Positions 38,697-43,964 of a stretch of 64,000 nt of DNA are shown here, in pieces. Origin of the DNA: an uncultured Pedobacter sp. (GTDB taxonomy: Bacteria; Bacteroidota; Bacteroidia; Sphingobacteriales; Sphingobacteriaceae); the NCBI RefSeq assembly GCF_946479715.1, contig NZ_CAMLHF010000001.1, positions 1 to 64,000 on the forward strand, written 5' to 3'. Position numbers and translations under genes: made by a program. Position 1 is the stretch's first letter; the number at the start of each line of letters is the position of its first letter. The notes below the pieces were generated by a model, which was not told the DNA's origin, made no database searches, and saw only the letters and a program-made list of their open reading frames with translations.

Positions 38697-39938
38697 CTAG
38701 TTAAATATCACTTCCTCTTCAGAAACCTTTAGGATTTGCTGTTCGGTGTAAGTGTACCTACCAGTATGAGCAATAAAAATATCCTTTTGCTCAAGAAGGT
38801 CGCGGTTAGCCAATAAAGTTTTCAGGCTTACATTTCCAATTACATATTTGTAATCATTACGGGAGAACCGCTCAATAATATTATCTATCTGAAGTTTTTC
38901 CAAGGTATACTCATGGGTGTAACGTAGATAAACTTCAATGTTTACATTGTCAGTATGAACTAATCCGTTATGCTGATGATATTTTTTATACTCGTAACGG
39001 TAATCATACCTTAAGGCAGCTATATCAGATAAAACAGCTGCTCCGGTTGGGTGTCCGCCGGCACCTTTTCCAAAGAAAAACTGTTTATCAGCAAAGGCGG
39101 CCTGAACCGTTACGCCGTTATATTCGTTTTCTACATTGAACAGGAAATCATCAGATTTTACAAACTTTGGCAATACATAAGTAATGATTTGCTTGGTACT
39201 TATTTTACGCGCAGTAGGTACAAGTTTAATTTTAAAATTCTTCTCCCTGGCATATTTAATGTCGTGCTCTGATAAGTTCTGAATGCCTACATTAAGTATC
39301 TTATTAGGATCAATAAATAATCCATAAGCATGAGCAGTTGCAATGGCTAGCTTAAATTTAGGATCATAACCTCCAACATCCAGAATAGGATTAGATTCAG
39401 CAAAACCAAGATCTTGCGCCTGCTTTAATGCAACGCCATATTCAAGATTTTCATTAAATATTTTAGATAGGATGTAGTTAGATGAACCGTTGAATATTCC
39501 ACTTATACCATGTAGTAATTCATTGTCGTAATATTCTTCCAGATTACGGATGATAGGTATACTGCCACAAACTGCACCTTCATACAGTAGAGAAGCATTG
39601 TGTTTTTCTTGCAATTCCACCAGTTCGACCAGATGAGTGGCAATCATTTTTTTATTAGCAGAAACTACATTTTTGCCACTAATTAATGCTCTTTTAACGA
39701 TGTTGTACGCTATCTCGGCATCATCAATTAATTCAACTACAGTATTGATTTCACTATTGTCTAATATCTCATCATGATTTGTGGTGAAAAGATGTGCCTC
39801 AAGGCTACGTTTTTTCTCAGGATTTTTAATAGCTATTTTAACGATCTCAAGGTTTAGGTCCTGACCGCGAATAATATCATGCAATCCTTGTCCAACAACT
39901 CCAAAACCAAATAAACCGATCTTAAGTTTCTTACTCAT
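38697..39938 (-). CDS. hom: Homoserine dehydrogenase
   Basis: A 413-aa enzyme reducing aspartate semialdehyde to homoserine. NAD(P) motif GLFGFGVVGQGL is at the N-terminus; the catalytic domain shows VSANKKMIATH, YEGAVCGSIPIIRNL and GYDPKFKLAIATAHAYGL with the catalytic Lys. The C-terminal ~90 residues (KKYHQHNGLV onward) hold an ACT-like fold rather than a typical regulatory ACT pair. It is the last gene of metY-metX-hom, 7 bp after metX, so it is under the same leader control. Confidence 0.94.
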   Translation of the reverse strand: MSKKLKIGLFGFGVVGQGLHDIIRGQDLNLEIVKIAIKNPEKKRSLEAHLFTTNHDEILDNSEINTVVELIDDAEIAYNIVKRALISGKNVVSANKKMIATHLVELVELQEKHNASLLYEGAVCGSIPIIRNLEEYYDNELLHGISGIFNGSSNYILSKIFNENLEYGVALKQAQDLGFAESNPILDVGGYDPKFKLAIATAHAYGLFIDPNKILNVGIQNLSEHDIKYAREKNFKIKLVPTARKISTKQIITYVLPKFVKSDDFLFNVENEYNGVTVQAAFADKQFFFGKGAGGHPTGAAVLSDIAALRYDYRYEYKKYHQHNGLVHTDNVNIEVYLRYTHEYTLEKLQIDNIIERFSRNDYKYVIGNVSLKTLLANRDLLEQKDIFIAHTGRYTYTEQQILKVSEEEVIFN

Positions 39939-39945
39939 CTAAATA

Positions 39946-41004
39946 CTATGCTGTTTTATGTAATTTAATTATTTTCTTGTTGACACTTTCTTTTAAGAAT
40001 GTGCCAATTATGTTGGTTAATATATCTGTCTCAATTAAAAAACCATCGTGACCATAAGCAGAGCTAATACTTTGGAGTGCTGCTCCTTGAATATGCTTTG
40101 CTAAGAACTCTTGTTCACAAAGAGGAAATAGAACATCGTTTTCAATTCCTATTACCAGCGTATTTGCTTTAACTAATGCTAAGGCATCAACAATACTTTT
40201 TCTGCTTCGGCCAACATTATGGCTGTCCATGGCTTTACTTAGGTACCAATAACTATAGGCATTAAAGCGTTTACAAAGTTTTTCGCCCTGATAATTCTGG
40301 TAAGAGGCAGCTCTGAATGAACCCGTTTTGTCATTTACACTTTCTAATTGTGTAGCTGAATATGCCTCATAAGTGCGATAAGATAATAAAGCAATGCTTC
40401 TTGCAGCCTTTAAACCTTTTAAGCCACCATCTGGCTGCTGTGCGTAAAATGTACGATCTGTGCTGATTGCTAAACGCTGACTCTCATTAAATGCAATTCC
40501 CCATGGCGAGTGTACTGCATTTGTAGCTACAAGAATTAGATTGTCTACGCTTTTGCTATCTGTAATGGCCCATTCCAATGCTTGTTGGCCGCCTAAAGAA
40601 CCTCCGATTAACACCTTAATGTGTTGAATGCCAAGATGTGTTGCAAGCAGACGGTGAGCAGCAACCAAATCTCTAATGGTAAATTCTGGAAAAGCAAGGT
40701 AATATGGTTGTCCTGTTACCGGATTTATACTTAGTGGATTGGTTGTGCCGTAATTAGAGCCTAATACATTTGCACAAATGATAAAGTGCTCCTCGGGGTT
40801 AAACAGATCGTTATTGCCGAAAAGTCCTTTCCACCAGTCTAAAACATCAGCATTGGCTGTAAGTGCATGGCATACCCAGATCACATTATCTTTCTTCGCA
40901 TTTAGTTTGCCATAAGTTTGATAAGCAACTTCTAATTTGCGTAGTTTTTTCCCGTTCTCCAGTTTAAATAACTTTGTATGCGTATATGTGGCAGTAGTGC
41001 TCAT
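39946..41004 (-). CDS. metX: Homoserine O-acetyltransferase
   Basis: The 352-aa alpha/beta hydrolase transfers an acetyl group to homoserine. The nucleophile elbow is GGSLGGQQALEWA near residue 134, the catalytic Asp lies in IENDVLFPL and the His in YGHDGFLIE. NVLGSNYGTTNPLSINP is another family block. Acetyl- versus succinyl-homoserine specificity follows the partner metY gene, which uses O-acetylhomoserine. Second gene of the operon, 25 bp after metY. Confidence 0.95.
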   Translation of the reverse strand: MSTTATYTHTKLFKLENGKKLRKLEVAYQTYGKLNAKKDNVIWVCHALTANADVLDWWKGLFGNNDLFNPEEHFIICANVLGSNYGTTNPLSINPVTGQPYYLAFPEFTIRDLVAAHRLLATHLGIQHIKVLIGGSLGGQQALEWAITDSKSVDNLILVATNAVHSPWGIAFNESQRLAISTDRTFYAQQPDGGLKGLKAARSIALLSYRTYEAYSATQLESVNDKTGSFRAASYQNYQGEKLCKRFNAYSYWYLSKAMDSHNVGRSRKSIVDALALVKANTLVIGIENDVLFPLCEQEFLAKHIQGAALQSISSAYGHDGFLIETDILTNIIGTFLKESVNKKIIKLHKTA

Positions 41005-41029: not shown

Positions 41030-42337
<1,308 letters not shown>

Positions 42338-42429
42338 CTATTTAGTTTTAAGTGGTTCCTGTAATGTTTTGATTTAGATACGTTGTGGAGGTTTTAGCTT
42401 CGGAAACGTATACGATTGTTAAGCGTACC

Positions 42430-42442
42430 CCTGCAAGGGGCC
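42430..42442 (-). promoter_or_regulatory. GC-rich hairpin between leader ORF and metY
   Basis: On the minus strand CCCCTTGCAGGGG forms a 5-bp stem with a 3-nt loop, about 40 nt after the leader ORF stop and about 95 nt before the metY ATG. It is enclosed by CGGAA/TTCCG, which can also pair. No T-tract follows, so it is not a standard terminator; it could be part of a translational or Rho-dependent switch. Confidence 0.4.
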
Positions 42443-42481
42443 TTCCGTATGAATGTGAAATGCAAAAGGAAGATTTGTAAA

Positions 42482-42565
42482 TTATAGTATGCAACAGCAC
42501 ATGCAATTCGCCTGCTGAGGATAACAATAATTTAATAGATTTGAGGTAATTCTTACAATTTTCAT
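42482..42565 (-). CDS. Cysteine-rich leader peptide of the metY operon (27 aa)
   Basis: On the minus strand an ATG at 42565 opens MKIVRITSNLLN, then YCYPQQANCMCCCIL and TAA. Of 27 residues five are Cys (codons TGT, TGC, TGC, TGT, TGC), four of them plus one Met within five codons, which is far from average codon use. The ATG is 9 nt after the last base of riboswitch helix P1 and the sequence before it is A-rich, as usual for Bacteroidota starts. Codons 17-25 can fold as CAGCA/TGCTG. This fits a regulatory leader that senses charged tRNA-Cys. The role is inference; the ORF is directly visible. Confidence 0.65.
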   Translation of the reverse strand: MKIVRITSNLLNYCYPQQANCMCCCIL

Positions 42566-42574
42566 TTTGTTTCA

Positions 42575-42686
42575 ATTTATCTTTCCAAACGACACCATGT
42601 CTTTTGGTCAGGAATTGGCACCTTCTCCATCTTGGGAGGGTTGCCAGTGGGTCAAAGAGCCTGTCTCTCGCCACTTCTTTATAAAT
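42575..42686 (-). ncRNA. SAM-I (S-box) riboswitch aptamer
   Basis: Read on the minus strand: helix P1 ATTTAT/ATAAAT (42681-42686 with 42575-42580), then GAAGTGGCGAGAGACAGGC, TTGACCCACTGGCAACC and AAGGTGCCAATTCC, the conserved core of the S-box family including the kink-turn and SAM-binding segments. It lies about 240 nt before metY, a methionine gene, as expected. A terminator after the aptamer is not seen; the leader ORF begins instead. Confidence 0.93.
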
Positions 42687-42739
42687 CAAACCTTTTATTA
42701 AGGAAGGTTGACTTGATTAGCTTTCGCTAAATGATATTG

Positions 42740-42771
42740 CAAATGTAGATTTAAGTTAATAAATATCCAAA
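42740..42771 (-). promoter_or_regulatory. Promoter of the metY-metX-hom operon
   Basis: On the minus strand TTTG (42768-42771), 20 nt, then TACATTTG (42740-42747), a full match to the Bacteroidota consensus. Transcription would start near 42733, which leaves about 400 nt of leader. Confidence 0.75.
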
Positions 42772-42845: not shown

Positions 42846-43964
42846 TTATCCTGCAAGTGCCTGATCTAAATCTGCTATTAAATCATCAATATGTTCTAGT
42901 CCAACAGATATCCGAATTAAATTTTGTGGGGTTTTGGTATCAGGTCCTTCCACAGATGCACGGTGCTCTATTAAACTTTCAACTCCGCCTAAACTTGTAG
43001 CCTGTGCAAAAAGTTTAACTTTATTAACCACTTTTCTGGCCTCATCAGCACCTCCTTTAATTAACACTGATAACATTCCACCAAAGCCATTCATCTGCTT
43101 TTTTGCTATATCGTGCTGAGGATGAGTTGTTAATCCTGGATAATAAACTGCTTCAATAGCGGGGTGTTTTTCGAGGTGTAATGCTAAAGCCATTCCATTA
43201 GTGCAGTGACCGCGCATACGATATGCCAATGTTTTGATACTTCTTACTAACAGGAAACAATCGAACGGAGAGGGTACTGCTCCACCAACTTGCTGTACAT
43301 TTCTGATCTTTTCCCAAAAATCATTTTTTTGTGCGGAGATAAGTACACCACCAAGAACATCACTATGGCCTCCAATGTATTTTGTTGAAGAGTGCATTAC
43401 AATATCAGCCCCAAAATCAATAGGATTTTGTAAGCATGGCGAAGCAAAAGTGCTGTCACAGGCAAGGATAAGGTCATTTTCTTTGGCAATTTTAGAAACT
43501 CCGGCAATGTCCGTGATTTTTAATAGTGGATTAGAAGGGGTTTCTATCCATATCAGTACGGTATTCTTCTTAATGAATTTTGCTATGTTATCAAGGTTAG
43601 TAAGATCTATGAAATCAATTTCCAGCGTATCTTTAAAAATGGTCTGCAATTGTTTTTTAAAACCCCAGTACATGTCGTCAGGAGCAATGATATGGCTTCC
43701 TGGTTTTAAAGCTTGAAAAACTGCCATCCCCGCTGTATTCCCTGAAGAAAATGCACAGGCTTCTACACCTTTTTCCAATTCTGAAAGCGTACTTTCTAAT
43801 GCTGATCTATTTGGATTACTTACTCTGCTATACATGTGTCCACCAGAGTAGCCACCGTCTTCATTTCTCAGGAAGGTGGTAGATAGATTTATTGGGGGGG
43901 TGACATCGTTAGTGCTGACTTTGTATAAATTTCCAGCATGTATTGCAAGTGTTTCTGGCTTCAT
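42846..43964 (-). CDS. Cystathionine gamma-synthase-like PLP enzyme
   Basis: A 372-aa member of the Cys/Met metabolism PLP family. Motifs: ETLAIHAGNLYKV, YSRVSNPNRSALESTLSELE, LACDSTFASPCLQNP and the PLP lysine in MHSSTKYIGGHSDVLGG near residue 195. It is shorter than MetY and lacks its extra segment, so cystathionine gamma-synthase or a gamma-lyase is more likely; the two cannot be told apart from sequence alone. It has its own promoter region with a near-palindrome at 44014. Confidence 0.88.
   Translation of the reverse strand: MKPETLAIHAGNLYKVSTNDVTPPINLSTTFLRNEDGGYSGGHMYSRVSNPNRSALESTLSELEKGVEACAFSSGNTAGMAVFQALKPGSHIIAPDDMYWGFKKQLQTIFKDTLEIDFIDLTNLDNIAKFIKKNTVLIWIETPSNPLLKITDIAGVSKIAKENDLILACDSTFASPCLQNPIDFGADIVMHSSTKYIGGHSDVLGGVLISAQKNDFWEKIRNVQQVGGAVPSPFDCFLLVRSIKTLAYRMRGHCTNGMALALHLEKHPAIEAVYYPGLTTHPQHDIAKKQMNGFGGMLSVLIKGGADEARKVVNKVKLFAQATSLGGVESLIEHRASVEGPDTKTPQNLIRISVGLEHIDDLIADLDQALAG

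Follow-up and report, generated by a model that had tools for sequence, protein, structure and literature searches.

A 64,000-nucleotide stretch of DNA from an uncultured Pedobacter sp. (the window) carries, on its minus strand, a short cysteine-rich open reading frame lodged between a SAM riboswitch and metY. An earlier note, made from the letters alone, had proposed that ribosomes stalling at the cysteine codons of this frame under cysteine shortage could switch expression of metY-metX-hom. The locus raises the question of whether the frame is a leader peptide, what such a peptide would sense, and what part the adjoining riboswitch would play. Comparison of related leader sequences supports, with a probability of roughly three in four, the reading that the frame is a leader peptide which senses charged tRNA-Cys on behalf of metY-metX-hom, is gated by SAM, and turns expression on at low cysteine.

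The elements of the window leader are compiled in Table 1. Along the minus strand, the predicted promoter is followed by the SAM-I aptamer, a gap of 8 nt, the leader ORF, the hairpins H2 and H3, and then metY, metX and hom. The frame itself is as the earlier note had described it, with five Cys codons and one Met codon among the last 14 residues of its product. The fold of a SAM-I riboswitch was also recovered 5' of the ORF, scoring above the curated threshold; the distance from the end of the aptamer to the ATG had been given as 9 nt and is one nucleotide shorter. Family models identified the downstream genes as those proposed, with the metX-like gene falling below its curated cut-off. The promoter motif matches what we take to be the Bacteroidota-type -33/-7 promoter consensus. 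On its 5' side the leader adjoins a cystathionine gamma-synthase/lyase-like gene on the same strand (42846-43964, minus strand), and an AT-rich inverted repeat 3' of this gene overlaps the predicted promoter. When the window's own leader was subjected to dinucleotide shuffling, an ORF that started in the first 12 nt and had at least three Cys in its last 12 residues arose in 1 of 20,000 shuffles, and the same Cys-tailed ORF anywhere in the leader arose in 29 of 20,000.

Table 1. Elements of the metY leader and the genes downstream of it, in window coordinates
Element	Position	Strand	Description
Predicted promoter	42740..42770	-	TTG-N20-TACATTTG; sequence motif
SAM-I (S-box) aptamer	42574..42687	-	RF00162, 75.2 bits, gathering score 44.4
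Leader ORF	42482..42565	-	ATG to TAA, 27 codons, product MKIVRITSNLLNYCYPQQANCMCCCIL, C-terminal CMCCCIL
H0	42495..42517	-	CAGCA/TGCTG hairpin within the leader ORF; clade-limited
Cys-Met-Cys-Cys-Cys codon run	42491..42505	-	TGC ATG TGC TGT TGC
H2	42441..42473	-	UCUUCC..GGAAGG hairpin directly 3' of the stop codon, in a pyrimidine-rich stretch
H3	42428..42440	-	GC-rich hairpin followed by UACG, without U-tract; covariation in relatives
metY	41030..42334	-	O-acetylhomoserine/O-acetylserine sulfhydrylase; TIGR01326, 678.5 bits, cut-off 495.1
metX	39946..41004	-	Homoserine O-acetyltransferase-like; best model TIGR01392, 343.7 bits, below curated cut-off of 500
hom	38697..39938	-	Homoserine dehydrogenase; NF004976, 306.4 bits, cut-off 205

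The pairing of aptamer and ORF was followed through a set composed of the window and 80 further metY loci, mostly named Pedobacter and Mucilaginibacter; these are the best 80 of 553 confirmed matches and lean to close relatives. An S-box core was present within 900 nt of metY in 75 of the 81 loci, and all 75 carry an ATG-started, Cys-ended ORF directly 3' of the aptamer. These ORFs have 25-47 codons, and every one has two or more Cys among its last 14 residues; in 69 of the 75, three or more Cys fall within the last 12, compared with 0.08 expected from shuffles. The S-boxes in the 75 loci were called by core motif, and an Rfam scan of the window and of 60 of its 74 relatives with a core identified a SAM-I aptamer in 60/60 relatives. 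In the remaining six metY loci neither an S-box core nor an Rfam match was found; two of them (L049 and L078) contain a short Cys-containing ORF, and none was seen in the other four. The Cys codons and the reading frame are clearly conserved among the relatives, as the earlier proposal demanded. Because this pairing is so conserved, SAM and cysteine supply are, judged by sequence, very probably read on one mRNA. A promoter-like TTG-N17-22-TAnnTTTG motif was also observed 5' of the aptamer in 49 of the 75 loci, against 0.9% of shuffled segments.

Conservation within the leader peptide is concentrated at its end. The N-terminal part varies in sequence and length. Many Pedobacter peptides have the tail CMCCCIQ, and many of those in Mucilaginibacter have CMCCCC. 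The last Cys is followed by zero or two residues in 60 of the 75 ORFs and by at most three in 69. Across the 75 loci the Cys codons are used as TGT (230) and TGC (159), so the third position varies. The start of the ORF is held close to the riboswitch: in all 60 relatives measured, the AUG lies 5-11 nt 3' of the aptamer (8 nt in the window), within reach of its switching stem. The earlier note had taken the S-box for a mere neighbour of the ORF; this tight spacing suggests instead that the S-box gates translation of the ORF. The sequence 5' of the AUG is A-rich at positions -6, -10 to -12 and -14 in the 75 loci, with A frequencies of 80% at -6, 84% at -11 and 73% at -12. Other RNA elements were seen near some of these leaders, namely a cobalamin riboswitch on the opposite strand in L025 (1736-1934, minus strand) and Flavo-1 RNAs farther 5' in L028, L036 and L039.

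Specificity was analysed in 61 genomes of the family nearest the window, 59 of which have S-boxes. The 90 S-box loci taken from them comprised 30 of the best matches and 60 picked to span genera. For L081-L110 the orientation was guessed by script, with 14 flagged, and an Rfam check covered L081 and L101 (flagged) and L083 and L104 (unflagged). With the start required to fall 4-13 nt 3' of the aptamer, a Cys-tailed ORF was identified at 20 of 23 metY S-boxes and at 3 of 8 metX-first S-boxes, compared with 0 of 49 control S-boxes (metY vs controls, Fisher 6e-15). The control targets were metH (28), hom (7), nifS-like (5), metE (5), cysH (2) and peroxiredoxin (2) genes. Widening the search to 330 nt after the aptamer recovered a Cys-tailed ORF at 2 of the 49 controls, and at the 28 metH S-boxes no short ORF of any kind was found at +4 to +13. 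At the sequence level, the ORF is specific to S-boxes of metY and of some metX-first genes. At the metY S-box of L105 the ORF ends in MCMCQ, below the Cys-tail threshold, and in L095 the ORF lacks a Cys tail. The S-box of L104 (genome G020) is followed at +10 by the AUG of metY itself, in the position of the leader ORF and with no short ORF there, an arrangement that appears to be a natural swap of the metY start for the leader ORF.

A search of 121 genomes with the codon motif TGYATGTGYTGYTGY returned 52 matches, against seven with the reversed pattern. Among the 30 matches examined, 16 combined an S-box, the ORF and metY, two (L234 and L235) were Cys ORFs that precede SusC/SusD pairs and have no S-box, and the other 12 belonged to neither type. 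The Cys module also occurs at SusC/SusD uptake genes. The Cys-run ORFs of L234 and L235, together with L244 and L245, have endings such as ..CCMCCC and ..MCMCCCH; they lie 5' of the SusC/SusD pairs, no S-box accompanies them, and the pair in L245 is followed by two genes with M14 carboxypeptidase domains. Separately, S-boxes were observed 5' of TonB-dependent SusC-like genes (Pfam) in L083, L084, L101 and L152. Well 3' of each of these S-boxes lies a short ORF that has Cys close to its end and passes the Cys-tail threshold in three of the four; its C-terminus in L083 is MHCRFFRMCMPVNI, and in L101 a terminator-like hairpin, seen by eye, lies between S-box and ORF. L081 shows an S-box, a terminator-like hairpin (by eye), a short ORF ending in MSCC and then a metY-like paralogue with 39% identity to metY. 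In L115 (genome G002) a SAM-I riboswitch (51-148) stands directly 5' of a tRNA-Cys gene (207-278, anticodon GCA); the one sister genome searched gave a tRNA-Cys-like match without an adjoining S-box DNA match.

The taxonomic range of the ORF was assessed with 42 metY leaders from phylum- and class-wide searches. An ATG-started ORF that lies within 700 nt and has two or more Cys close to its end was present in 23 of 30 leaders inside the window's class, six of these positives being genomes of family f1 that also belong to the 61-genome sample; it was missing at seven of the 30, and none of the 12 leaders outside the class had one. The combination of S-box (Rfam) and Cys ORF was found in families f1, f24, f25, f40, f66, f73, f74 and f75. 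In another family, a SAM-I/IV riboswitch (RF01725) was observed 5' of metY (L187, 2996-3094).

At metY of families f41 and f49 no S-box was found, and the leaders carry ORFs rich in both Met and Cys. Such ORFs were identified in all three f41 metY loci (L210, L211 and L247) and in four of the six f49 loci (L201, L204, L250 and L251). Six of these seven loci have two ATG-started Met/Cys ORFs; a second frame read by eye in L201 gives CNCCMMMRMRC. In L210, L211, L247 and L250 each of the two ORFs is followed by an intrinsic terminator with a U-tract, while in L201, L204 and L251 the same test returned only a single T-rich candidate, in L204. The RNA 3' of the ribosome was folded, and the pairing of the 5' arm of the metY-proximal terminator with upstream sequence was computed. 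With a ribosome on the last Cys codon this pairing amounts to 4.9 nt in L211, 4.0 nt in L210, 6.2 nt in L247 and 6.1 nt in L250, compared with 0.1, 2.8, 0.6 and 0.3 nt, respectively, with a ribosome at the stop codon. In the stalled state the number of paired nucleotides is not above that of shuffled spacers in the four loci (52, 130, 64 and 150 of 300 reach it); the stability of the pairing is, with only 0, 12, 12 and 4 of 300 as stable. Equilibrium folding of the whole S-box-less attenuators was set aside, as it placed the terminator at 0.89-1.0 in every ribosome state and did not discriminate. The attenuator anatomy of these four loci predicts that metY would be on at shortage of Cys or Met.

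The ORFs of f41 and f49 differ also in their Met codons. The mean number of internal Met is 4.33 in 12 of these ORFs, a count that excludes the second ORF of L204 and the by-eye frame in L201, against 1.88 for the 75 S-box ORFs; a further 11 S-box ORFs, from other families, average 1.91. MM occurs in 8/12, 3/75 and 2/11 of these three sets, respectively. These S-box-less leaders are few, with three metY loci in f41 and six in f49. The idea of an exchange of sensors is weakened by L185, L078 and L049, which have no S-box and whose leader ORFs contain Cys but few Met codons.

The RNA downstream of the codon run was analysed in 43 aligned Pedobacter-type leaders; the Mucilaginibacter alignment was excluded for misaligned 3' arms. 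The GC-rich hairpin near 42430 that had been pointed out before (H3) is real and covaries in relatives, with changes on both sides in five of six pairs. The best-placed element, H2, had not been noticed earlier; it is paired in 99.2% of cells and nearly invariant in sequence. A further hairpin inside the codon run, H1, is paired in 94.7% of cells, and one of its seven pairs has changed on both sides. Cells changed on both sides numbered 56 (shuffle mean 20.3), a count that none of 500 column shuffles reached, and the covariation score was likewise reached by 0 of 500; pairs changed on both sides numbered 6 (shuffle mean 6.2), which 407 of 500 reached and which is not above chance. The CAGCA/TGCTG hairpin inside the ORF (H0), to which the earlier note had assigned a switching role, is present in the window and was rejected as a general switch, since only 11 of the 43 leaders, the window included, have standard pairs at all five positions. 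The core of that proposal, a Cys-codon ORF attenuating metY, is strongly supported at the level of sequence; the hairpin wiring was only partly right.

H2 keeps a nearly constant distance from the codon run. Counted from the first base of the Met codon in the run, the CUUCC of H2 starts 29-32 nt downstream in 43/43 leaders (sd 0.65), whereas the stop codon lies 6 to 16 nt from H2 (sd 1.85). The run, not the stop, therefore seems to be held in place, although the constant spacing could alternatively reflect few insertions and deletions. In the 43 leaders the predicted value for H2 is 0.83 in ribosome-free RNA, 0.72-0.78 with a ribosome stalled in the run and 0.30 with a ribosome at the stop codon, so that a ribosome at the stop is predicted to hinder H2. 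As H2 is predicted also without a ribosome, it cannot by itself explain repression by SAM. Pyrimidines make up 69% and G 8% of the 30 nt that follow the stop; two other stretches of the leader have 51-52% pyrimidine. Of the 75 S-box leaders, 72, the window among them, lack an intrinsic terminator and three pass the test; classical attenuation would therefore not be the final step in the S-box lineage. No terminator partner that would make H2 a mutually exclusive antiterminator was found, though H2 varies with ribosome position.

These elements can be arranged into a mechanism. Initiation in Bacteroidia favours A-rich unpaired sequence. The A-rich start sequence of the leader ORF overlaps the 3' strand of aptamer P1, and SAM binding is therefore expected to conceal the region where the ORF starts. 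Ribosomes of Bacteroidia fail to recognise Shine-Dalgarno sequences, according to the available part of PMC9976891. With SAM bound, P1 would be closed and the leader ORF would not be read. At low SAM, the ribosome would load on the A-rich stretch and read the ORF, and its progress over CMCCC would report the cysteine supply; the interspersed Met codon perhaps senses Met as well. When Cys-tRNA is short, the ribosome would stall, H2 could form downstream and metY would be expressed; with SAM and cysteine both plentiful, metY would be off. For the final step in the S-box lineage we favour Rho-dependent termination because intrinsic terminators are absent and the stretch after the stop is G-poor and pyrimidine-rich; control of metY translation would be the alternative. 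In the SAM-high state, Rho would have to act on the untranslated leader, or some other mechanism would be needed. In its fullest form the proposal is a two-input gate, in which the aptamer decides whether the ribosome starts and the Cys run decides where it stops, metY is turned on only by a joint shortage of SAM and cysteine, and lineages exchange sensors, with f41 and f49, lacking an S-box at metY, using Met codons of the leader peptide instead. We regard this fuller form as evenly poised between right and wrong.

The direction of the response deserves separate consideration. A cysteine-sensing leader could also act with the opposite sign, a ribosome stalled by cysteine shortage uncoupling from RNA polymerase so that Rho loads, metY is turned off and sulfide goes to cysteine. 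The pyrimidine-rich stretch after the stop, the missing intrinsic terminators and the position of the Cys run, which abuts the stop in most ORFs, would all suit such a device. However, the S-box-less attenuators make activation at cysteine shortage the likelier sign, as the four metY leaders with classical attenuator anatomy predict it, and the best MetY family model is also named cysteine synthase, so that activation at low cysteine makes sense. The opposite sign is therefore considered unlikely.

Other readings dispense with cysteine sensing altogether. Were the ORF translated and S-box-gated merely for shielding from Rho or for reinitiation, its Cys codons setting a fixed low rate, it would resemble the riboswitch-controlled uORFs that exist in M. 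tuberculosis (PMC11260477 and PMC12810186, in the parts available); this reading is improbable, leaving unexplained both the Cys runs at metY S-boxes, against none at the 49 controls, and the Met/Cys runs at S-box-less metY. A functional peptide, such as a thiol- or metal-binding microprotein, would account for a Cys-rich C-terminus conserved at the protein level, but hardly for a remainder that varies in sequence and length (25-47 aa), for a position fixed relative to the aptamer and H2, or for tandem copies in S-box-less relatives, each with a terminator in four loci, and we give it very little credence. It is also highly doubtful that the run is kept as RNA structure and not as codons: it does self-pair as H1 in most close relatives, but both-side changes are confined to one of the seven H1 pairs, and Cys runs persist in sequence-divergent leaders, in Mucilaginibacter and in other families. 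The reading of the ORF as a SAM-gated leader peptide that activates metY-metX-hom at low cysteine remains the preferred one.

Several known systems share features with this leader. The clostridial ubiG operon reportedly combines an S-box with a Cys T-box, so that SAM and Cys-tRNA are both read in one leader; its Cys sensor is said to be a T-box RNA, whereas a translated peptide is proposed here. Of the features of trp/his-type attenuators, the window has the leader ORF with regulatory codons; the terminator between ORF and gene is not in the window and is present at the S-box-less L210, L211, L247 and L250. Mycobacterial polycysteine ORFs and candidate actinobacterial Cys leaders, as described in the accessible portions of PMC1262725 and PMC13236596, are likewise short ORFs with a Cys run near the stop, 5' of sulfur genes, and searches at the mycobacterial ORFs identified no conserved terminator hairpin. 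These leaders serve the cys operon and cbs genes, whereas the metY operon is concerned here. The mycobacterial ORFs are called leaderless in the same portions, with translation attenuation, whereas the present ORF is internal, follows a SAM aptamer by 8 nt and occurs in a class in which Shine-Dalgarno sequences go unrecognised by ribosomes (PMC9976891, available part). The leader ORF thus shares the C-terminal Cys run near the stop with the mycobacterial type and, unlike it, is probably not leaderless, having an aptamer and a predicted promoter upstream.

The uORFC-8-2 motif 5' of cysS in Rhodobacterales, in the available text of PMC8632094, also has tandem Cys codons and is ascribed ribosome-mediated attenuation. 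It differs in its intrinsic terminator, its gene (cysS) and its lineage (Alphaproteobacteria), and no riboswitch is described in that text; the S-box-less leaders of f41 and f49 are a closer parallel to it than the S-box leaders are. In M. tuberculosis, the Mbox-uORF and B12-riboswitch-uORF arrangements likewise place the translation of a small upstream frame under riboswitch control (PMC12810186 and PMC11260477, available parts). The former involves Rho-dependent termination, and its platform masks the Shine-Dalgarno sequence (PMC12810186, available part). Both differ from the present leader in their ligands, and the same parts of PMC12810186 and PMC11260477 describe no amino-acid-sensing codon run. 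Within Bacteroidota, the accessible parts of PMC9723704 mention leader-peptide attenuation 5' of amino-acid operons of Flavobacterium psychrophilum, and those of PMC7366714 mention long 5' UTRs of Bacteroides thetaiotaomicron that contain small ORFs resembling leader peptides. No description of a Cys leader peptide beside a SAM riboswitch, or of any Cys leader peptide in Bacteroidota, was found in the full-text literature searched, in which subscription papers are thinly covered, and the accessible parts of PMC2965389 and PMC2258182 contained nothing on the combination of Cys leader and S-box. The combination appears to be new; both component kinds of RNA control are already known.

If the proposed reading is true, two ancient forms of RNA-based control, the metabolite-binding aptamer and the leader peptide read by a ribosome, would work in series on one messenger, in several Bacteroidota families of one class. 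The leader would then show a riboswitch acting on translation where ribosomes ignore Shine-Dalgarno sequences, and its relatives would show the evolutionary swapping of sensors for one pathway.
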